This document shows positions 8,827 to 36,174 of a stretch of 64,000 bases of DNA, one piece after another; the stretch's first letter is position 1; each line of letters starts with the position of its first letter. The position numbers were made by a program, and so were the translations under genes. The stretch comes from Flexistipes sinusarabici DSM 4947. GTDB taxonomy: Bacteria > Chrysiogenota > Deferribacteres > Deferribacterales > Flexistipitaceae. A model generated the notes under the pieces. It was not told the origin of the DNA and searched no databases. It saw only the letters and a program-made list of their open reading frames with translations. The stretch covers positions 434,001 through 498,000 of the forward strand of contig NC_015672.1 of the NCBI RefSeq assembly GCF_000218625.1. The letters are read 5' to 3'.

Positions 8827-9032
8827 TAATTTATACATTTAGAGGCAAATCCAATTATGGAATGTGCATCGCTATTCACCAACTGACGATCATATTTTTT
8901 GAGAAGTGCTGCAGGAGCTTTAAGGCATATACTAAGTTTGGGGTATTGTTCAGCGAGAAATTTCCCTTGATATGACTTAATTGTCCAGCTATCATAAAAT
9001 AATGAATGATATACAGAACTACACAACATATT

Positions 9033-9041
9033 GTTATACGC
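9033..9041 (+). other. Left recombination half-site (R') of cassette array
   Basis: GTTATACGC is the exact reverse complement of GCGTATAAC at 9789-9797, the R'' box of the first attC. That is the expected relation between the first and last bases of one integron cassette, so cassette 1 begins at 9034. No complete attC or attI hairpin is visible just upstream. Confidence 0.7.
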
Positions 9042-9788: not shown

Positions 9789-9848
9789 GCGTATAACAAG
9801 GCACTCCAGCCGACCGCTAACGCGTCGGCTGAGTTTAATCGTTAGAGC
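9789..9848 (+). other. attC site 1 (integron cassette recombination site)
   Basis: R'' GCGTATAAC (9789-9797) and R' GTTAGAGC (9841-9848) flank an imperfect palindrome. CAGCCGAC (9807-9814) pairs with GTCGGCTG (9824-9831), and the stem continues through ACTC/GAGT with one extra C, the extrahelical base typical of attC. The terminal loop holds CGCTAACGC. Confidence 0.88.
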
Positions 9849-9851
9849 GTT

Positions 9852-10700
9852 ATGGACGCCATTGCAGCTCTCCGCAAAGAATACGAGCCTAGGCTGGCCC
9901 TAGGGGCTGTGTCGGACTTCTCTCGGGCGCTGTTGGGTGCCGCATTCGACAATCTGCAAAATGAGGGGCCTCTGCGTTTCAATAACTTCTCATACGCGCT
10001 ACGCGAGTTCGTCCGTCACATGCTTAAGGACGCAGCACCGTCTGATGAAGTAAAGGCGTGTATCTGGTTTAAGCCGGATAAGAATAGTAAAACCGGAATA
10101 ACACGAAAGCATAGAGCGAAATACGCCATACAAGGCGGGCTGTCAGATAAGTTTGTCGAAAAAAAGTTAGGTGTCGACTCAGGCAAAACGCTCAAGGATC
10201 TGGTGGCCGCGCATGACACCCTGAGTAGGTACACTCATATTGAGCCGGGAACATTTAATGTGCCACTTGCTGACACCGAAAAGCTGGCAGAGGAGTGCCT
10301 GCAATCTGCAGCTGCATATGTTGAACTTATCTTGGAGTGCCGGCGGTCGGTCCGGGATGCAGTGGCGGACCATGTAGATCAGCATCTAATTGATGAGGTT
10401 GTTGCGAATGGAATCGACGAATTGTACGAGATCGCAACCCATGGCTGGGTAGACGGGCATTGGATCAATGATGTTTCTGTTGACGATATATCGTCGGATT
10501 CTGTGTCGTTGACTGTTGAGGGAAGTATGGATTTCGGACTGCAGTACGGGTCAGATGGCGATGTGAAACGGGATATAGGGTTTGTCACCTCGGCTTCGTT
10601 CCCGTTCGACGCCAAAATACTGGTCGAAATGAAAGCGCCGCTTGGCAAGCACGCGTCAGTAGAACGCCTTAAAGTCGATACGGATAGTTTTTACCAGTAG
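9852..10700 (+). CDS. Cassette 2: unknown protein of high GC
   Basis: A 282-residue soluble protein. The first half is helical with conserved-looking FSRALLGAAFDNLQ and YALREFVRHML segments, and the second half looks beta-rich and acidic. It may belong to the predicted nuclease-associated proteins found in defence cassettes, but I cannot name the family with confidence. Base and codon use (many GCG, CTG, GTG codons) is clearly GC-richer than the surrounding genome, so it looks recently acquired from a higher-GC, perhaps gammaproteobacterial, donor. Its stop lies 2 bases before the next attC. Confidence 0.7.
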   Translation: MDAIAALRKEYEPRLALGAVSDFSRALLGAAFDNLQNEGPLRFNNFSYALREFVRHMLKDAAPSDEVKACIWFKPDKNSKTGITRKHRAKYAIQGGLSDKFVEKKLGVDSGKTLKDLVAAHDTLSRYTHIEPGTFNVPLADTEKLAEECLQSAAAYVELILECRRSVRDAVADHVDQHLIDEVVANGIDELYEIATHGWVDGHWINDVSVDDISSDSVSLTVEGSMDFGLQYGSDGDVKRDIGFVTSASFPFDAKILVEMKAPLGKHASVERLKVDTDSFYQ

Positions 10701-10701
10701 C

Positions 10702-10763
10702 GCTCTAACAATTAGCTGCTGGCGGCACAGCGAAGCTGCGCGCCTGAGCATTCGCGTTATGTA
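10702..10763 (+). other. attC site 2
   Basis: R'' GCTCTAAC (10702-10709) is the exact reverse complement of GTTAGAGC, the first bases of cassette 2 at 9841. R' GTTATGTA is at 10756-10763. The centre folds as GCTGGCGGCACAGC-GAA-GCTG... with an imperfect stem ending in CGCCTGAGC. Confidence 0.82.
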
Positions 10764-10845
10764 TCGGATATCATGTTCATTGTTCGGCTGAACCGATACC
10801 ATGAAATTGTGAGAAAGGTGAAATAAATCGCAGGGGCACATTAAA

Positions 10846-11475
10846 ATGAAGAGTTTGAAATCAACAAACAAACAACATCTTACAATTTTTACGGCATTAA
10901 ATATAGCTGTATTCTGGGTATTCATAATTTCGCCAACTGACCCCAATAAATGGAAACAGATATTTGACTCATTAACTCTAAAGGACAGTCTCTTTTTGTC
11001 AATTTCTCCTATTTTAACACTGGTACTAAGTGGTATATTCTCTGCTACAACAAAGGCACGTCTGGTTTACTGGCGCTACAACTATCCATTACCTGGTAGT
11101 GAAGCATTTTCGGTTCATATGGCAAAAGATCATAGGATTGATCCTGATGCACTCGCTACAAAGTGGGGGCCACTACCTTCAGATCCGAAAGATCAAAATC
11201 GTTTATGGTACAAAATATATAAAATTGTAGAGAATGACATTAGGGTCATGGATTCACATCGAGACTGGCTTCTATCAAGAGATTTAGCTGCTTATTCAGT
11301 GATCTTTTTGTTAGTATTTGTTCCTAGTGTTGTTGGGAGTGGCAAAGCTTGGAAAACTACGTTGATATACATTGCTATTATGATACTTCAGTATTTAATT
11401 ATACTTGTCGCGGCACGCATATACGGAAAAAGGTTTGTATGCAATGTATTATCAATTGATTCTCAGTCAAATTAA
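10846..11475 (+). CDS. Cassette 3a: four-TM membrane protein
   Basis: A 209-residue protein with hydrophobic segments at about 12-29, 49-67, 147-164 and 171-193, and a cytoplasmic-looking loop of about 80 residues between the second and third. The pattern resembles the small 4-TM effectors of defence systems (for example S_4TM-type), but the sequence family is not recognised. It lies 23 bases before the metallo-hydrolase gene with no attC between them, so both share one cassette and likely one function. Confidence 0.7.
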   Translation: MKSLKSTNKQHLTIFTALNIAVFWVFIISPTDPNKWKQIFDSLTLKDSLFLSISPILTLVLSGIFSATTKARLVYWRYNYPLPGSEAFSVHMAKDHRIDPDALATKWGPLPSDPKDQNRLWYKIYKIVENDIRVMDSHRDWLLSRDLAAYSVIFLLVFVPSVVGSGKAWKTTLIYIAIMILQYLIILVAARIYGKRFVCNVLSIDSQSN

Positions 11476-11498
11476 ATTTCTATTATATGGAGGTTTAG

Positions 11499-12524
11499 GT
11501 GGCTCGTTTTCATTTTCTTAATGTGAAGAATGGAGATTGCTCCATTATCGAGCATAACTCCGGACATGTATCAATTATCGATATTTGCAATGCGCGTTTA
11601 CCAAAGAATGAAAGGGTGCTTTCATTAAATGAAATTATTAATCTGACAGCAGAGAGCGAGCAGTTAGCAAAAATTACTGAGGCTAGGAAAAACTACAACC
11701 AGAAAGCAAATCCAGAGAACCCAATCTCATATTTGTCGAAATTTGGAATAAAGCAGATATTTCGTTTGGCAATTACACACCCTGATATGGATCATATGGA
11801 CGGCCTTGTTGACTTGTTTGAATACTCAAGACCGACGAACTATTATGACACATTAAATGAAAAAGAAATGAATAATGGGTGGGAAGGATCACCATATAGA
11901 GAAGAGGATTGGTTGCTATACAAGTCACTTCGAGACAGGCCTCCGGAGACTGATCCAAAAGCGATACGAATTTATTCAGGAGATAATGGTATTTATAGAA
12001 GAAAAAATTGGGATGGAGAACCTCCAGGTGATGCCTTTTTTACACTATCACCTACCCCACAGTTAGTAGCGGATGCGAATGAGGCAGATGATTACAACGA
12101 TGCATCTTATGTTTTTATGTATTGGAGTCCAACTGGACGTGTGATTATTAGCGGGGACTCACATGACAAAGCATGGGATCATATACTTGACACTCATGAA
12201 GACCTTGTGAAGAATGTTGAAATATTGATAGCACCTCACCACGGCAGGAAATCTAAAAGATTCTATGAGTTTTTAGATATACTTAAACCTAAAATGACAT
12301 TCTTTGGGAACGCACCATCTAAAGATTTAGCCTATAGCGCATGGCGAAATAGGAACCTGCCATATATTACAAATAACATGGCTGGATCAATGATCGTTAA
12401 TTGTGACGATAATATGTCTTTATATGTTTCTAATGAGAATTACGCCAAGGATGAAAACGTAAATACATTCTATTCTGAAAATAATAAAGGATGGTATATC
12501 AGGGAAATTGCTCCTTCAAAATAA
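11499..12524 (+). CDS. Cassette 3b: ComEC/Rec2-like metallo-beta-lactamase-fold hydrolase
   Basis: A 341-residue stand-alone MBL-fold protein like the C-terminal hydrolase domain of ComEC/Rec2. It has H94-x3-D98-H99 in THPDMDHMDG, D220 in ISGDSHDKAW and H247-H248 in APHHGRKS, the metal ligands of the fold. Family members hydrolyse nucleic acids or small phosphoesters. There is no signal peptide or membrane segment. The start is GTG with GGAGG 5 bases upstream. Paired with the membrane protein before it, it may be the enzymatic half of a two-gene defence module. Confidence 0.78.
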   Translation: MARFHFLNVKNGDCSIIEHNSGHVSIIDICNARLPKNERVLSLNEIINLTAESEQLAKITEARKNYNQKANPENPISYLSKFGIKQIFRLAITHPDMDHMDGLVDLFEYSRPTNYYDTLNEKEMNNGWEGSPYREEDWLLYKSLRDRPPETDPKAIRIYSGDNGIYRRKNWDGEPPGDAFFTLSPTPQLVADANEADDYNDASYVFMYWSPTGRVIISGDSHDKAWDHILDTHEDLVKNVEILIAPHHGRKSKRFYEFLDILKPKMTFFGNAPSKDLAYSAWRNRNLPYITNNMAGSMIVNCDDNMSLYVSNENYAKDENVNTFYSENNKGWYIREIAPSK

Positions 12525-12531
12525 AAGGTTT

Positions 12532-12593
12532 CATATAACCAGGCTTTTACAGCGGACGCAAAGGGCTGCGCCGCTGAAAAGCAACGTTAGCTG
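12532..12593 (+). other. attC site 3
   Basis: R'' CATATAAC (12532-12539) and R' GTTAGCTG (12586-12593) flank a strong stem. GCTTTT-A-CAGCGG near 12543-12555 pairs with CCGCTGAAAAGC at 12571-12582, with single unpaired bases on one strand as in classical attC sites. Confidence 0.88.
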
Positions 12594-12608
12594 TAAAGGA
12601 GAATGTAA

Positions 12609-13229
12609 TTGAGTGGCCATGAAATAATCCTTTCCTACCTTGAGATCATACTGAGTCCTCAAGTGGTGATTAGTAGCGTCATTGTCGTGTTCTTGCTGAT
12701 CTTTCGAGTTGCGCTTGCCGCCTTAATCGACCGGGTCGCGTCAATTAAATGGGGGCCAGCAGAACTATCTGCGCCCCAGCCGCTTAGTGATAGGCGAACG
12801 ATGGATGGAGAAGTCTCGGGAGACGACACACTCGGCGAATCGGCTGACTCGGACTTGCCCGAGGGCGTTAACGTTTCAGAGGAAGATGCCAGACGACTTC
12901 GCCAAGCCATGCAGTCCGAGAGGGCGCGTGCGCATTTGTGGGAGTACCGGTTCTTAAACCTTTTCCTAGTATTGAATACCCAACGGGTGCTCGATTGGAT
13001 AGCGGGTTTACCTGATCCTCCAACGTTCACGATGTATGATGCTTGGTGGCAACAAGTGATACCTACTGCGGAGCAACGGCGTACAATAATTCAAGTGCTT
13101 GAAGATCACAATTTGATTGTGATAAAAGGTGATCTCATTGAAATTACACCGAAAGGTAGAGAATACATCGAGTGGAGAGGACCGCTTCCAGGGTCTCCAG
13201 TGCAGGCCAAGCGAACTGGTCACAGCTAA
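12609..13229 (+). CDS. Cassette 4: membrane-anchored protein with winged-helix-like tail
   Basis: A 206-residue protein of high GC. It has a hydrophobic segment at about 16-40, an acidic low-complexity linker (about 60-90) and a C-terminal ~80 residues ending in a winged-helix-like pattern (QVLEDHNLIVIKGDLIEITP). The start is TTG with AAAGGAG 5 bases upstream. The stop codon lies inside the R'' box of the following attC, a typical cassette economy. No known family recognised; a membrane-tethered sensor or regulator is a guess. Confidence 0.7.
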   Translation: MSGHEIILSYLEIILSPQVVISSVIVVFLLIFRVALAALIDRVASIKWGPAELSAPQPLSDRRTMDGEVSGDDTLGESADSDLPEGVNVSEEDARRLRQAMQSERARAHLWEYRFLNLFLVLNTQRVLDWIAGLPDPPTFTMYDAWWQQVIPTAEQRRTIIQVLEDHNLIVIKGDLIEITPKGREYIEWRGPLPGSPVQAKRTGHS

Positions 13230-13288
13230 CTATGCCAATGTAGCGGGTCGCAAAAAGCTCGCGCCCGCTGCATTGGCCATGCTAGCTT
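13223..13288 (+). other. attC site 4
   Basis: R'' CAGCTAAC (13223-13230) is the reverse complement of GTTAGCTG at 12586, the start of cassette 4. GCCAATG-T-AGCGGG (from 13234) pairs with CCCGCTGCATTGGC (13264-13277), and a loop of AAAA type lies between. The R' box is degenerate (GCTAGCT at 13281), suggesting decay at the array end. Confidence 0.85.
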
Positions 13289-13324
13289 TTTTATATTTAT
13301 ATTAAAGAGACAATAGGGGAATAT

Positions 13325-14038: not shown

Positions 14039-14633
14039 ATTATAAATTTGGCCTTGAATTCCCTGAACGGTGCCATAGATTACCAGTAGTTTCTACTTAT
14101 TAGATAAAAGACAATCTTGGAGTAGTGTCCAAATTCAGAGATTAATCAATCTTTAATATAGATTGATTAACAGCGAAGCTGACCAAACAGAATAATCAAG
14201 AACAATACTACAGATATGTATTTTGCGTTCACCTTTTTCACAAGGTGAATGCAAAATACGAATAACTCTCAATCCCGCCTGTATTTGCAGGATCTAAAAT
14301 CATTCAAAATTTACAGAAAAAACAAAAAATTAGAAAATTCACTGTTATATCGTTGCAAATTGCCATGTTTATCCTGTGTCTTTTTGTGATGCCAAGGGGC
14401 TGCTGTGCCATTTATAACGGTGTCCAAATCCCCCTTAATCTCACGGAGCGCGTGAGTTCATATATAGATATATAGGTCTTCTGAACACCTGAAGTTCGGA
14501 GAATATCGCTAACATACATTTCTTTACAGCATATATCTATAAATAAACTCACAGACAGGAGGAACTCGTCAGGATGATTATCCTGACATTTTTAAATTTT
14601 ATTTGACCGTACCATTTTATTTAAAGAGAGGAG
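14039..14633. other. Non-coding stretch with several hairpins
   Basis: No credible ORF. It contains an inverted repeat near 14144-14172 (TTAATCAATCT ... AGATTGATTAA). A large hairpin of two 18-bp arms with one mismatch lies at 14218-14235 and 14242-14259 around a TTTCAC loop. GTCAGGAT-GATT-ATCCTGAC near 14570-14589 is followed by T-rich DNA. The first two may mark the end of the cassette region or old element ends. The last may be a terminator upstream of the recombinase gene. Confidence 0.5.
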
Positions 14634-16642: not shown

Positions 16643-17800
16643 CTACTTTTGGTTTTTATGGTTAAGTAATTGATCTTGATGTTTTACAACCTCTTCTTTT
16701 AGGTCATTGTCCCTTAAATGCAGGTATCGCTCGGTGACCTGAATAGAGGAGTGCGCTAATATTTCTTTAACTTTGTAATGGTTTGTGCCTGATTGTAAGA
16801 AACTTGTTGCAACAGAATGACGCAAATCATGAATACGGATTTGCGGCAACCCAGCAAGTTTTAATGCATTTGCAAAACTGCCCCTGAAGTCTTTTGTTTT
16901 AAAAAGGTTACCACTGTTAATATCGTTTTTATCTACATAATCTTTTATTTCACTTAAGAATCCTGGAGAAGCATGAACTCTGATTTCTTTTTTTGCTTTA
17001 GTGTACTCTTTAGGCACTCTAATTATGTTATTTTCAAAATCAATCCATTCAATCTGCATGCCTGATACATTAGATTTTCTCAGTCCAGTGGCAAGACTTA
17101 TGAGAAGAAACATATATAATTCCTGGTTTTTACTATGCTCGGCAGCTTCGAGAAGATTTAAAGATTCTTCGATGCTAATAGTTGCAGGGTTAAAATCGGT
17201 CTTTTTATTTTTTGCTATATCTTTTAATTCATTGTCAAAAGGAATCTCTTTCATATACCTGTTATCTATACACCAATTAAAAAACTTCCGTAAGTTTATC
17301 AAATAGTATCTGAGTCCGGAGTTGCCGATCTTTCTTGTGTGGTGTCCGTATCTTTTTATGATTTGGTATTTTTCTTCTGAATACAGTTTTTTTCTTTTGC
17401 TTGGTGTTTTTAATACATTGCAAAAATCTTTGATTACAGAAGGTGTAATCTTGGCAAGAGAGATATCTTTAAAATATGAAAAAATAAGATCCCATCTGTG
17501 CTGTTCTATTTTAGAGGGTTGATTTATACTTAAGTATTTTTCAAGAATAGTCCCGGTGTTTACTTTCTTAGATATTTTGTAACTGCCCGAATCTTTCGCC
17601 TCAAGATATTCATTGAAGGCATCGTTCAAATTGTTAGAGTCTGCTCTGTAAAACTTACCTTTTAGTCTATAATAAATTTGACGCTTTCTGGATAAATTTT
17701 CACCACAATTACAGTATACGTGTCCACCTTTTCTGGCATTTTTGTTATCTGTGGATGTAAATTTTCTGCAATTTTCGCATCTCAGATAAATACCTTTCAT
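16643..17800 (-). CDS. int: Island tyrosine integrase with N-terminal zinc ribbon
   Basis: A 385-residue site-specific recombinase. Residues 1-35 form a small Cys cluster (C8, C11, C30, C32). Residues about 80-180 are the core-binding domain. The catalytic set is R241 (ATGLRKSN), K268 or K270, H324-x2-R327 (HDLRH), H350 (LAHSS) and nucleophile Y359 (TERYLH). The ATG at 17800 is preceded by GAGGTGATT. It starts 188 bases from attR and next to TGGATACA repeats, as expected for the enzyme that inserted the island into tRNA-Leu. Confidence 0.95.
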   Translation of the reverse strand: MKGIYLRCENCRKFTSTDNKNARKGGHVYCNCGENLSRKRQIYYRLKGKFYRADSNNLNDAFNEYLEAKDSGSYKISKKVNTGTILEKYLSINQPSKIEQHRWDLIFSYFKDISLAKITPSVIKDFCNVLKTPSKRKKLYSEEKYQIIKRYGHHTRKIGNSGLRYYLINLRKFFNWCIDNRYMKEIPFDNELKDIAKNKKTDFNPATISIEESLNLLEAAEHSKNQELYMFLLISLATGLRKSNVSGMQIEWIDFENNIIRVPKEYTKAKKEIRVHASPGFLSEIKDYVDKNDINSGNLFKTKDFRGSFANALKLAGLPQIRIHDLRHSVATSFLQSGTNHYKVKEILAHSSIQVTERYLHLRDNDLKEEVVKHQDQLLNHKNQK

Positions 17801-29996: not shown

Positions 29997-30323
29997 AACC
30001 TTGAACGTTTAACCCTGAACCCTGAACCTTGAACCTTGAACCCATACTACCCATACTACACATCACATCTTACGTTTCACGTTTCACGCATCACGCATTA
30101 CGTCTTACTGTCACATTCACTTTCACTTTCACTGTATTCTGAACCTTGAACATTGAACTTATCATTGCCGTGCTTCCTATGTTGTTGTAAATCCTCAGAT
30201 ATTACTCAAACAAACGCAACTTGGTATAAATTTTGGGTGTTATCAGTATTAGATTTTTGCTCCATTTGAGTTGAAGCGATATAAAAATTGTCTTTTAAAT
30301 TCTTATGAGATGTTGTAAATTTA
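29997..30323. repeat. Left copy of a ~330-bp direct duplication (polA upstream DNA)
   Basis: Starts with TTGAACC-type heptamers, then CACGTTT-type heptamers, then about 200 bases of unique AT-rich sequence ending in GATGTTGTAAATTTA. It matches 35794-36145 closely, with scattered substitutions and repeat-number differences. It contains no gene. Confidence 0.85.
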
Positions 30324-30329
30324 AATAGG

Positions 30330-30350
30330 AAGTATAATTTACCTGACCCC
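30330..30350. repeat. Short dispersed repeat AGTATAATTTACCTG
   Basis: The motif occurs here, near 30930-30945 and near 33123-33137, and inverted with one change near 33054-33074. It marks junctions within the IS-rich zone and resembles the short palindromic repeats mobilised by REP-associated transposases. Confidence 0.5.
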
Positions 30351-31050: not shown

Positions 31051-32073
31051 ATGGCACTATACGGAGGTTTTGACTTGCATTCAACCAATAATTATTTAGC
31101 CATTATTGATGAGAATGACAAACGTATTCTCAAAAAGAAGCTGGACAATGATCCTGATTTGATTATTTCAACATTAAAGCCGTACCAAAATGAGCTTAAA
31201 GGTGTAGTTGTTGAATCTACTTTCAATTGGTACTGGCTTGTAGATCTTTTGATGGACAATGATTTCAAAACACATTTGGCAAACCCTTCCGCTGTTAAAA
31301 AATACGAGGGACTCAAACACAGCGATGACAATGATGATGCACATTGGCTTGCTCATCTTTTAAAACTAAACATTCTACCTGAAGGTTACATTTATCCCAA
31401 GAAGCAACGTCCAATACGGGATTTACTCCGGAAAAGAGGACACCTTGTGCAGCTTCGTACATCTCTTATTCTCAGCTTACAAAATATCATCCAGAGAAAT
31501 TGCGGGACAAAACTTGGAGCTAACATTATTAAACAAACAAAAGAGGACAACCCTTTATTTGAAATGCTTAATTCTGATGAGTCCCTATCACTTTCAGGAG
31601 TTATTAGTAAAGAAAGCATAGACCATCTGTCAAATCAAATACGGCAGATAGAAAAGAAGGTAGAAAACTCGATGGAGCTTCACAGTTCATTTATCAAATT
31701 ACAGTCTATTCCCGGTGTAGGTAAAACATTAGCACTCACAATTATGCTGGAAACAGGCACAATTGAAAGATTTAATAAAGTTGGCAATTTTGCTTCTTAT
31801 TGCAGGAAAGTACCTACAAAGTGGACGAGCAATGACAAAACAAAAGGCAGTGGAAATCAGAAAAATGGAAATAAATATCTTGCATGGGCATTTTCGGAGG
31901 CGGCTGAATTCATAAAGAAATTCGATCCTGCGGCAAAATCGTATTACCAACGCAAAATGTCTAAAGGAAATCGAATGATTGCTCATTCTGCTGTGGCACA
32001 TAAACTCAGCAGAGCTGCTTTTTATATTATGCGTGATGATGTAGTTTATGACAGTAAGAAGTTATTTGGATAG
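31051..32073 (+). CDS. IS110-family transposase (DEDD recombinase)
   Basis: A 340-residue RNA-guided-type recombinase. The N-terminal RuvC-like DEDD domain starts with GGFDLHSTNNYLAI (first Asp at 8) and has VVESTFNWYWLVD and HSDDNDDAHWLA for the other acidic residues. The C-terminal Tnp20 domain has LQSIPGVGKTLALTIMLETG and the likely nucleophile Ser in GSGNQKNGNKYLAWAFSEAA. Length is normal and the frame is intact, so the element may still be active. Confidence 0.92.
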   Translation: MALYGGFDLHSTNNYLAIIDENDKRILKKKLDNDPDLIISTLKPYQNELKGVVVESTFNWYWLVDLLMDNDFKTHLANPSAVKKYEGLKHSDDNDDAHWLAHLLKLNILPEGYIYPKKQRPIRDLLRKRGHLVQLRTSLILSLQNIIQRNCGTKLGANIIKQTKEDNPLFEMLNSDESLSLSGVISKESIDHLSNQIRQIEKKVENSMELHSSFIKLQSIPGVGKTLALTIMLETGTIERFNKVGNFASYCRKVPTKWTSNDKTKGSGNQKNGNKYLAWAFSEAAEFIKKFDPAAKSYYQRKMSKGNRMIAHSAVAHKLSRAAFYIMRDDVVYDSKKLFG

Positions 32074-32342: not shown

Positions 32343-32552
32343 ATATATTGAAAACAGAGGTGCAGAAAAGGTGCTTAATTTGCAAATATTATAGTTTAGT
32401 AAATAGATTGCATAAAAATGCGTACAGTGGAGGAATATCTACTTGACAAAAAACTTGTTATGGGTGTCCCCTTTTTTTAGAGTTCTCTGATTTTACTTTG
32501 AGCCTTTTCAAATTCTTCAAATTTATTCATTTCTTAGACCGGGTAATTTTGG

Positions 32553-32642
32553 CATATAACGCCGTAAATCACCGGCGGTAAAAAGCAGAGAGGCGAAGGA
32601 ACAGCGCTTTTCACCGTCCGAGTGCATTTGCCTTGTTAGCGG
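32553..32642 (-). other. Orphan attC site, minus orientation
   Basis: Read on the minus strand, CCGCTAAC (R'', 32642-32635) and GTTATATG (R', 32560-32553) flank a long imperfect stem: GGCAAATGCAC...CGGACGGTGAAAAGC pairs with GCTTTTTACCGCCGGTGATTTACGGC. It lies 2 bases beyond the stop of the DUF2628 gene in the correct cassette orientation. Confidence 0.82.
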
Positions 32643-32644
32643 TT

Positions 32645-33016
32645 TCAACCTTCACTATTTTCTTTCATATAAAGTGCAACAGCCCCTTCTGGGTTTGCCG
32701 CTGCTACTGTTTCTTTATATTCATATCCTCGTTTTGGCAAGTTGCTCTCCCTCCATTTATTCCCATTAACACCAAAAATTATTTTGACAATAATGGAGGC
32801 TACCCTAATCAGGGCATCACCGCCTGAACCAGAACCTGATGCACCAATAATAAAACCCAATACGAGGAATGCAATCAAAACCCCTACACCAAGCCCCCAC
32901 ATTTTCTTTACCATAGCCCAGATAAAGCTAAAGAAAAATGCTGGCCATGACCATCCCTGTTTTACAGCTTCATAGTTTCCTTGAGGGTTGGCATAAATTT
33001 TATACTGCTTCATCAT
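32645..33016 (-). CDS. DUF2628-type small membrane protein (integron cassette gene)
   Basis: A 123-residue protein. The N-terminal soluble part (KQYKIYANPQGNYEAVKQG) leads into WSWPAFFFSFIWAMVKKMW and a second hydrophobic stretch at about 46-62, the pattern of DUF2628 proteins, which are recurrent in chromosomal integron cassettes. AAAGGAGA precedes the ATG. The attC follows its stop, but upstream the cassette start is replaced by a short dispersed repeat, so the cassette is truncated or stranded. Function unknown. Confidence 0.78.
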   Translation of the reverse strand: MMKQYKIYANPQGNYEAVKQGWSWPAFFFSFIWAMVKKMWGLGVGVLIAFLVLGFIIGASGSGSGGDALIRVASIIVKIIFGVNGNKWRESNLPKRGYEYKETVAAANPEGAVALYMKENSEG

Positions 33017-33200
33017 TTGTCTCCTTTTGGTTTCGAGTTTTTTACCAGTAAATAGGGTCAGGTAAATAAGTATATTATTTTATCCTCAAATGTTTTGTAT
33101 GTAGATTCTATAAAACCTTTGAAGTATAATTTACCTGTCTCCATTCAATTTACCCATTCAATTTCCATTCAATTCACAGGTTAGCCTCTGGTATTTTGGG

Positions 33201-33561
33201 CTATGAATTAAGTTCAAATAAAATCTTTAAAGACTGGTTAATTTCCTGTACCTTATCTATTGACAATTTCCCCCGAATTTTGACTAACCTATGACGATGA
33301 TCTATTGGACGTGTCTGCAAGCAGTCTGCTATCGATTTTTTTTGATAAACCATTGTTGGATGAAGGATAAATTTCAACATTGGTTTGTATTCGAGTTTTT
33401 TTTGGACTCCATTCAGTAATTGGAACAACTTGGATAACAGGAACTCTTTCATTATAAATATCATTAGTCACAACTATGCATGGTCTAATTTTTCCTGTTT
33501 CTGAACCTTTTGTCGGATCGAGATTGACGTCAATAATCATACCTCTTTTCAGCGTTGTCAT
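33201..33561 (-). pseudogene. MazF/PemK-type toxin, frameshifted at an A8 run
   Basis: A ribosome-independent mRNA endonuclease family protein: LKRGMIIDVNLDPTKGSE, KIRPCIVVTND and VVPIT are the typical N-terminal motifs. The frame runs off at eight A residues (minus strand; T8 at 33336-33343) into a short false tail. One fewer A restores a normal C-terminus (SIADCLQTRPIDHRHRLVK) that stops at 33201. The start at 33561 overlaps the antitoxin stop as ATGA. It may be a pseudogene, a phase-variable gene, a slippage product or a base-calling error. Confidence 0.8.
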
Positions 33562-33791
33562 TCCGGCCATCCGTTTAATGCAGTTTCGGTCAATTCTTTT
33601 AGATCATTATCTTCAGAATAGATTTCAGAATATAGCTCAGCGGATTTTCGTAGATTTTCAAGTTCCATTTCTTTTTTGTAATGTTCTATAGCTACACGAA
33701 GCATAGAGCTTTTATCCTTAAATCCATAGGCTTTAAAATTGTTCAAAAATTGTGCTTGTGATTCTTCAACGCTGAATTTTGCCTGTAACAT
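33558..33791 (-). CDS. RHH-like antitoxin of the MazF-type pair
   Basis: A 77-residue protein with a short beta start (MLQAKFSVEE) and two helices typical of a ribbon-helix-helix DNA-binding antitoxin, then an acidic C-terminal tail that would bind the toxin. The ATG at 33791 follows AAAGGAT; an upstream in-frame ATG at 33866 has no such site. It overlaps the toxin gene by 4 bases (ATGA). It would neutralise the toxin and repress the operon. Confidence 0.75.
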   Translation of the reverse strand: MLQAKFSVEESQAQFLNNFKAYGFKDKSSMLRVAIEHYKKEMELENLRKSAELYSEIYSEDNDLKELTETALNGWPE

Positions 33792-33873
33792 ACAATATCC
33801 TTTTTGGCGCTTATGTTGGGCCCTAATATACAGACCTACTTTAATGCCCAATTCATTAAAAGTCAATTAAATT

Positions 33874-35492
33874 CTTTAATTTTGCATTAGAAAATAACAA
33901 ACTCCGATTTTGATATTTTTCCTGTTGTTTTTAAAATACAAGAAAAGATTTTCCAAATATTACTTCATTCATACTTTACTAAAGCATAAATTTTCTCCAT
34001 TTACACCGTTTTTAGACACAGCAATACTGCCTATTGCCTGAATTGTCCACAAAGTTAACATAAGTAAAGAAAAAAGGTCACAACGTTAAACATTCTGTCC
34101 TCCACTGTTCCATTTTTTTGAACATATCCACACTGCAGCACAACTTCAGTTTATTACCGCCGTGGGACACAAGTTTCCCCGCTATAGATATGACCTGATA
34201 ACGTATACTACCCATCTCTTTATTTTTATAGACACCTCCCATTATGATTCGTTTGAGGTACATAATCAGATTATATGCCAGTATTCCTGTCTTAAACCAT
34301 AAGCCGTTACCCGCAAGATTACCCGAAGGAAAGCTTTTTAAATTAAAACCATACTTTGCTTCTTTTATATTGTATTCACAAACACCGCGCAAATTATAAA
34401 AATGTACCACCTTTTCTGCATCCAGTTTTGAATTAGTTGCAATAACACGATATTCATATTTATCACCAAGAAGCTCCGGAACTGTGGGGTTGTCTGACTC
34501 AATTTTCTTACGAACAACTATTATACGGAAACTCTCCTTAGTGTTTTCCATACAGTGAATAAACTCTGCTATTTCCTCATTATCGCTTTCATCTCCATAC
34601 CTATTTCTATATCTTTTCCATGAATCAGATGGTATATGATTTATTCCTTTACGAACTGAACTATCAAGGTCACCTCCTATAAAAAACGTTAAATCGTTAT
34701 CAAAACAGTAATTCAATACTTTAGATTGGTAACCGGCAGAATCATTACGAACATTGGATACTTCTATACCACAAGATTCAAGATATTTATGGACTCTCTG
34801 AAGCTGTTCAAGTATGCCAACCTGGGCACTTACATTGCCTTCCCGAAATTCCTCGTCTATACAATAACCGCTCTCTCCTATAAAACACGTCATAGAACTG
34901 TATGCTTTAAATTTCTTATAACAATACTTGGCATCCCTTTTATACACCTTTGCATAAGTGGCGTCCTGATCCAGAGTAACTGAAAATAAATTTTCTCTTT
35001 TTAAAGCATCTTTCACTATTTTATAGTTGAGACTGCCCAGTTTGCTGATTGTTTTATTAACTGCTACTTCATCCAACATGCTTTCTGTTTTTGAAAAATA
35101 CCTACTGATGCTGGAACTATCCGGGATATCTTCAATACCGCTGATATAGCTTAAAACCTTATCAAAAGAAAGTTTGTCGATATCACTGAAACTCCTGCCA
35201 CCGCATATCATCGATAGAATAACAGGAATTATTTTAGAAGATGGCGGTTTGCCTCTGTTAGAGCCTGGATGATCAAGTTCTTTATCAAGGAAATCTCGGA
35301 TGCCCATCTTATCTAACAGTGGGATTAACAAAGATATTCCACCAAATGGGGTAATTTTATCATTGCTTCTTTCTAATTTGTAGTTTAGTTTGCTCATTGT
35401 AAGTCACCTTTTTGGTTGTGGTTTTTGTTTTCTTAAAACCTTAATCTACAACATCTTAAAGGTGGCTTGCAACTCCTAATGCAATCTTAAAG
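33874..35492 (-). mobile_element. IS1380-family insertion sequence
   Basis: Inverted ends CTTTAATTTTGCATTAG (33874-33890) and the inverse of 35476-35492 match at 15 of 17 bases. Direct repeats AAATT lie at 33869-33873 and 35493-35497. The 1619-bp length fits the family. It contains one intact transposase gene. Confidence 0.78.
34078..35397 (-). CDS. IS1380-family DDE transposase
   Basis: A 439-residue transposase. The N-terminal region PFGGISLLIPLLDKMGIRD and the ICGGRSFSDIDKL segment are typical, the first catalytic Asp is in SVTLDQDATYAKVY, later RNDSAGYQ and FFIGGDLDSSVRK provide the second acidic region, and LRGVCEYNIKEAKYGF carries the catalytic Glu. The frame is intact, so the element may be active. 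Confidence 0.92.
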   Translation of the reverse strand: MSKLNYKLERSNDKITPFGGISLLIPLLDKMGIRDFLDKELDHPGSNRGKPPSSKIIPVILSMICGGRSFSDIDKLSFDKVLSYISGIEDIPDSSSISRYFSKTESMLDEVAVNKTISKLGSLNYKIVKDALKRENLFSVTLDQDATYAKVYKRDAKYCYKKFKAYSSMTCFIGESGYCIDEEFREGNVSAQVGILEQLQRVHKYLESCGIEVSNVRNDSAGYQSKVLNYCFDNDLTFFIGGDLDSSVRKGINHIPSDSWKRYRNRYGDESDNEEIAEFIHCMENTKESFRIIVVRKKIESDNPTVPELLGDKYEYRVIATNSKLDAEKVVHFYNLRGVCEYNIKEAKYGFNLKSFPSGNLAGNGLWFKTGILAYNLIMYLKRIIMGGVYKNKEMGSIRYQVISIAGKLVSHGGNKLKLCCSVDMFKKMEQWRTECLTL

Positions 35493-35793: not shown

Positions 35794-36145
35794 TTGAACC
35801 TTGAACCTTGAACCTTGAACCCTGAACCTTGAACCTTGAACCCATACTACCCATACTACCCATACTACACATCACATCTTGCGTCTCACGTTTCACGTTT
35901 CACGTTTCACGCATTACGTCTTACTGTCACTGTCACATTCACTTTCACTTTCACTGTATTCTGAACCTTGAACCTTGAACTTATCATTGCTGTGCTTCCT
36001 GTGTTGTTGTAAATCTTCAGATATTATTCAAACAAACGCAACTTGGTATAAATTTTGGATGTTATCAGTGTTAGATTTTTGCTGCACTTGAATTGAAGCT
36101 ATATAAAAATTGTCTTTTAAATTCTTATGAGATGTTGTAAATTTA
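35794..36145. repeat. Right copy of the ~350-bp direct duplication, upstream of polA
   Basis: Closely matches 29997-30323, with extra TTGAACC and CACGTTT heptamers. It ends 30 bases before polA and so probably contains the polA promoter region; no clear consensus promoter is visible. Confidence 0.85.
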
Positions 36146-36174
36146 GATAAAAATCCTTTTGGAAAGGTTGATTT

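Follow-up and report, generated by a model that had tools for sequence, protein, structure and literature searches.

The chromosome of Flexistipes sinusarabici DSM 4947, a bacterium of Red Sea brine, carries, directly behind a gene for a DUF2628 protein, a long palindrome that resembles the attC site of an integron gene cassette. This raises the question of whether gene and palindrome form a genuine cassette and, if so, how it came to lie in a genome in which no integron integrase (IntI) was found. An initial annotation of the 64,000-nucleotide stretch of DNA analyzed here (the window) had read the palindrome as an attC in the correct orientation. Our analysis leads us to conclude that the DUF2628 gene and its attC are very probably a real, stranded gene cassette, a SALIN (single attC lacking an integron integrase), which would have been formed and moved by IntI elsewhere. 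The element is classed as a SALIN because the genome lacks IntI and the attC is single.

Anatomy of the attC site

The 88-base palindrome (32641-32554) begins 3 nt beyond the DUF2628 stop codon on the strand of the gene, or 2 nt beyond it when R'' is taken as 8 bases, which bears out the close spacing given in the initial annotation. On that strand its 5' half runs CGCTAAC (R'')-AAGGC-AAAT(G)CAC(T)CGG(A)CGGTGAAAAGC, with the unpaired bases in brackets, and its 3' half, after the loop, runs GCTTTTTACCG-CCG-GTG-ATTT, ACGGC, GTTATAT (R'). When compared with RYYYAAC and GTTRRRY, the two boxes are each one position off the strict consensus; the invariant AAC and GTT are kept, and the pairing of R'' with R' is imperfect. 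The inner stem of the predicted fold has 21 pairs and three unpaired bases, all of which lie on the L'' arm. Unpaired stem bases on one arm of an attC mark the bottom strand for recombination. Because they are one-sided here, the attC strand, and hence the direction of insertion, is fixed. The locus thus consists of one gene immediately followed by an attC of matching orientation, as in a gene cassette.

The raw hairpin energy of the palindrome is unexceptional (z=-1.6), so that fold energy alone proves nothing for an attC. The palindrome is present as a single copy and is not a common local repeat, a possibility which the initial annotation had itself raised against an attC.

Table 1. Features of the DUF2628 locus and its surroundings (window positions).
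Feature	Position	Strand	Details
Island array without integrase	9791-13290		attCs at 9791, 10703, 12533 and a degenerate one near 13226
IS110-type DEDD transposase gene	31051..32073	+	PF01548, PF02371
Repeat, ~190 bp, next to IS110-type gene	32284..32475		Copies in both congeners, 90-93% identical
Possible start of following cassette (TTATATGCC... ATG-NKFEEFEKAQSKIREL-stop), truncated	32476..32553	-	Direct reading; 17 aa
attC site	32554..32641	-	R2 and R1 scores, motif-plus-stem scan, congener attC, fold
attC R' box GTTATAT	32560-32554	-	
attC L' arm	32586-32566	-	Spacer between L' and R'
attC loop	32605-32587	-	19 bases
attC L'' arm	32629-32606	-	Unpaired G32625, T32621, A32617; spacer between R'' and L''
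attC R'' box CGCTAAC	32641-32635	-	
Cassette gene, DUF2628 protein, intact	32645..33016	-	123 aa; PF10947 E=5e-10
Remaining cassette 5' leader	33017..33048	-	Aligns with the L065 leader, which starts G|TTAGCGGTAAT
Dispersed repeat with Y1 (RAYT-type) transposase gene fragment between inverted AATTTACCTG ends	33049..33180		Cuts off upstream core site
MazF/PemK-type toxin, broken frame (33289-33570 and 33201-33464), with small upstream ORF	33201..33866	-	Cassette's strand
IS1380-type element	33874..35492	-	~30 further matches in genome

Scores against attC models

The site was scored with two covariance models and compared with the attCs of the cassette array in the island of the same window. 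The first model, R1, was built from 13 class 1 integron attCs from plasmid integrons and gave the DUF2628 attC 9.2 bits, which is background level; with this model one island attC reached 10.1 bits and another was missed. R1, which also missed the attC of a Desulfobacterales homologue (L029), was rejected as too narrow. The second, R2, is an 18-pair model of 29 R1 matches from plasmids and several chromosomes. Its training set took in two sites of this same genome, an island attC and the attC at ~1,899 kb, and left out the DUF2628 attC. An attC covariance search covering 32553-32642 had been proposed as a check, and with R2 it does return a score, of 18.2 bits (E=0.03 for the 64-kb window). 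The site occupied row 5 of the window ranking. The rows above it belonged to island attCs (9791, which was also matched in reverse, 12533 and 10703), and the best background match below it reached 10.6 bits. Over the whole genome (2,526,590 bp, a single contig) it was the third distinct locus listed by R2, with E=1.3, in a search whose first filter skips some true sites and from whose list two island attCs are absent. Given this genome-wide E value and the background level obtained with R1, we regard the attC score as moderate.

In a motif-plus-stem scan the DUF2628 attC reached 77, as high as the top-scoring island site, against no score of at least 72 in 12 Mb of random sequence with matched trinucleotide composition. 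The tolerances of the scan were set after the site was known, so that the figure is no more than supportive. A first crude stem scan gave no separation of the DUF2628 attC from random sequence, and a search of Rfam returned no attC family match. A 14-site attC alignment (A2), in which the inner stem was misaligned, was left unused.

A sister attC behind a different gene in a congener

The strongest evidence for attC identity comes from comparison with a genome of the same genus (G016). Its contig C16 carries a cassette array with attCs at L106 4068-4129, 8760-8855 and 9316-9368. The second of these is 79% identical to the DUF2628 attC over 98 bp and starts 4 nt after a 797-aa gene that is unrelated to DUF2628. 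A similar palindrome therefore stands behind an unrelated gene in an array, as is predicted for a modular attC. The two stems, a comparison of two sequences only, differ by a compensatory T-A to C-G change and by a G-T to A-T change.

Pieces of flanking DNA are common to this congener array (L106 3391-9478) and to the island array of the window (8980-9037, 14041-14148), at 75-87%. This suggests one ancestral array site that may have come to hold different cassettes.

The cassette gene and its homologues

The DUF2628 gene is intact and evolves under constraint, with a dN/dS of 0.25 against a 79%-identical homologue, and hydropathy peaks point to a membrane protein. That homologue, the closest relative found, belongs to genome G118 (locus L065; class Desulfobacteria sample), which carries three IntI. 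The DNA match between the two (82% over 423 bp) extends from the leader through the gene into the first part of the attC. The L065 cassette has an upstream core site, G|TTAGCGGTAAT, complementary to its own R'', and the center of its attC is deleted; the downstream inverse core is CCGCTAATAAGGC in L065 and CCGCTAACAAGGC at the Flexistipes site. The next relative, at 67% identity, comes from a Desulfobacterales MAG (L029/L066) and has a complete 129-base attC that begins inside the end of the DUF2628 gene. Upstream of it lie a further attC, ~600 bases away, and, immediately in front of the gene, a GTTAGCG core. The cassette status and the orientation that had been assigned to the Flexistipes gene are supported, and homologues in other phyla carry attC features.

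No attC was found with the DUF2628 relatives at 39-61% identity (Halomonas, Plesiomonas and the anaerobes L030 and L067), so DUF2628 is carried by some cassettes and is not a cassette-only family. No DUF2628 gene was found in viral contigs, where the search gave one distant phage match (33%), and a plasmid DNA search with the whole region returned no match.

Boundaries of the cassette and the dispersed repeats

The upstream boundary had been described as lost at an AGTATAATTTACCTG repeat. This repeat is real and dispersed, being found at 19 places genome-wide as against 5 for a reversed control pattern, and the junction between its conserved end and the cassette leader lies at 33048/33049. Within the repeat is a fragment of a Y1 transposase gene (33075-33124); the basis for linking it to Y1 is the transposase PF01797 in L036. 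Where the homologue has GTTAGCGG, the window reads TTACTGG (33051-33045), which overlaps the end of the dispersed repeat, and the upstream core site G|TTRRRY is absent. The boundary is lost by a few bases; this loss is secondary, and the cassette is therefore a damaged one. On the other side, ~78 bases past R' resemble the start of a cassette and are then cut off by a repeat common to the congeners, 38 bp of which recur at genome 1,001,453. Both junctions of the DUF2628 cassette are overwritten.

It seems highly improbable that attC hairpins are acted on by Y1 (RAYT-type) elements, which would thereby disperse arrays as single cassettes. Such repeats do cut the cassette on either side, in one case within ~5 bases of the core site, and the attC of the G118 homologue is broken beside GGGGAC-type repeats. 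By pattern, however, Y1-type repeats numbered 0 in the congener array and 0 at the third attC locus of the genome described below, and for this reason we keep the idea that they favor attC sites as no more than a distant prospect.

The surrounding segment

Pfam matches confirmed that the site lies between an IS110-type and an IS1380-type element, as had been annotated. Between a permease gene and polA, the window contains the segment 29628-36045, where G016 has 470 bp and the other congener, G015, ~120 bp; the DUF2628 cassette sits in a segment that is absent from both congeners at the matching place. Besides the cassette, the segment carries the IS110-type gene and the IS1380-type element, a frame-broken mazF-like gene and several copies of a dispersed repeat. 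Targeting of the attC by the IS110-type element was considered and rejected, as 480 bp separate the attC from the end of the transposase gene and a separate repeat occupies part of this interval.

Two further observations concern this segment. The small ORF upstream of the mazF-like gene is possibly its antitoxin, and the two together (33201-33866) are possibly a decayed toxin-antitoxin cassette. In addition, an imperfect direct repeat (350 bp, 89%; 30000-30327 and 35800-36149), upstream of polA, brackets the 5.5-kb block that contains the orphan cassette, and its first copy ends where a Y1-linked repeat starts (30328-30332).

Absence of IntI and other attC loci in the genome

No IntI was found in the Flexistipes genome, in which the best match to TIGR02249 (81 bits, against a cut-off of 265) is a 313-aa XerC/D-like frame, and no complete integron, with intI and attI, is present in this genome. 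The tyrosine recombinase of the window (16643-17800) is of phage type. Neither the three genomes of the genus nor the 49 genomes of the same class yielded an IntI; across the phylum it was detected in two of 51 genomes, both of another class, i.e., G003 (L057, 506 bits) and G002 (L058, 367 bits). A class 1 type attC lies near the intI of G003 (L059 10612-10671).

The genome contains three attC loci, at 443.8-447 kb, 466.6 kb and 1898.8-1899.6 kb. The initial annotation held that this chromosome had received cassettes at more than one site; the presence of attCs at three separate loci agrees with this, and does not distinguish entry from relocation. It had also placed the DUF2628 site 14 kb outside the island. 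The nearest array attC is in fact ~19 kb away, with no second attC within several kb, and the 14-kb figure fits only on the assumption that the island ends near its tyrosine integrase at ~17.8 kb.

The cassettes of the island array appear to be defence-like, judging by the similarities of their products. They include a relative of pPIWI/Argonaute-associated nucleases (PADLOC Aga_Nuclease E=2e-78), a metallo-beta-lactamase-fold protein (PDC-M48B-like) and an HNH nuclease. At the third locus (genome 1,898,767-1,899,581, plus strand), attCs at L056 5768-5899 and 6525-6582 flank a 216-aa ORF of no known family, and the second of them scores 51.9 bits with R2.

Origin of the cassette

For the DUF2628 cassette, recombination by IntI, the route of arrival and present immobility are inferred. 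An IntI elsewhere would have formed the cassette and spread it, and it would later have been stranded in the Flexistipes chromosome, where the Y1-transposase-linked repeat removed its upstream core site. As the genome lacks IntI, the cassette would be immobile today unless IntI were supplied in trans.

There is a little less than an even chance that the locus is the remnant of a multi-cassette array (CALIN, cluster of attC sites lacking integron-integrase), in which at least one cassette followed the DUF2628 gene (32476-32553), mazEF perhaps preceded it, and IS elements and repeats broke the array. The sequence past R' offers a cassette-like start, an ATG and a short truncated ORF, yet this ORF has only 17 codons, too few for homology, and a second attC is missing from the neighboring several kb. 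Upstream, mazEF lies on the same strand with GGCTAAC 14-20 nt past a stop codon; this motif, however, overlaps the end of the dispersed repeat, and the mazF homologues found on plasmids, taken as a set, gave no sign of a cassette context. The occurrence of the same attC type in a true array of the congener also fits an array remnant.

A clearly less probable origin, and on the whole an unlikely one, is insertion of a single cassette by IntI at a non-classical genomic site (attG). The locus does have one cassette and one attC with no array near, and attG insertion is an established route into genomes (Loot et al. 2024, cited in PMC12901181 and PMC12690207). Against this, no G|TT can be read because the repeat has overwritten the upstream junction, the surrounding segment is foreign to both congeners and so provides no empty attG site for comparison, and none of the three genus genomes has an IntI.

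Slightly more doubtful again is relocation, by which IS elements or homologous recombination would have brought in a piece of an older Flexistipes array with no new cassette entry. The congener array with the sister attC ends in the same flank as the island array (75% over 109 bp), for which reason the two arrays look related, and the 350-bp direct repeat brackets the cassette block. Neither congener, however, has a DNA match to DUF2628, and similarity of attCs within a genus is expected anyway.

It is very improbable that the palindrome is a transcription terminator, or a miniature element, that resembles attC by chance. Its position directly behind a gene, its ordinary fold energy and the repeat-rich region are outweighed by the missing T-run at the hairpin base, the single copy, the boxes, spacing and one-sided bulges that fit attC, the empty random-sequence control and, in effect decisively, the sister attC behind another gene in the congener array.

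Relation to known systems

SALINs are an accepted class (PMC9229058, PMC12690207, PMC9024848), with 115 single orphan cassettes in Shewanella (PMC9229058), and IntegronFinder 2 allows that CALINs with a single attC may be true positives (PMC9024848). Like other SALINs, the Flexistipes element consists of one attC behind one gene, with no IntI and the next attC far off; unlike them, it lies in Deferribacterota and its upstream core site is destroyed by a dispersed repeat. Three other sites are CALINs, namely the island of the window (9.8-13.3 kb), the attC pair at genome ~1,899 kb and, in the congener, the L106 array; the DUF2628 element has one attC only. DUF2628 (PF10947) genes outside integrons, as in Halomonas and Plesiomonas, are of the same family and lack an attC. 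Cassette insertion at attG sites, reportedly described by Loot et al. in 2024, would likewise put a lone cassette in the chromosome outside an integron, but the junction at the Flexistipes site is unreadable. The IS110-type element beside the attC recalls the IS1111-attC insertion sequences; it differs from them in that it ends at least 80-120 bp from the attC, behind a separate repeat, with no element inside the attC. No integrons of Deferribacterota are named in the genome paper or the integron-distribution paper, and a literature search for Flexistipes with integron found nothing.

The DUF2628 cassette is a further SALIN, of a class already known from other bacteria and damaged at one end, and it leaves established views of integrons unchanged. 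It ties together Deferribacterota and Desulfobacterota, two phyla that have one cassette gene in common at 79% identity and with conserved cassette ends. The congener pair, with one attC type behind different genes, is useful for tracing the sources of cassettes, and the locus provides a clean case of integron cassettes in an integrase-less lineage.
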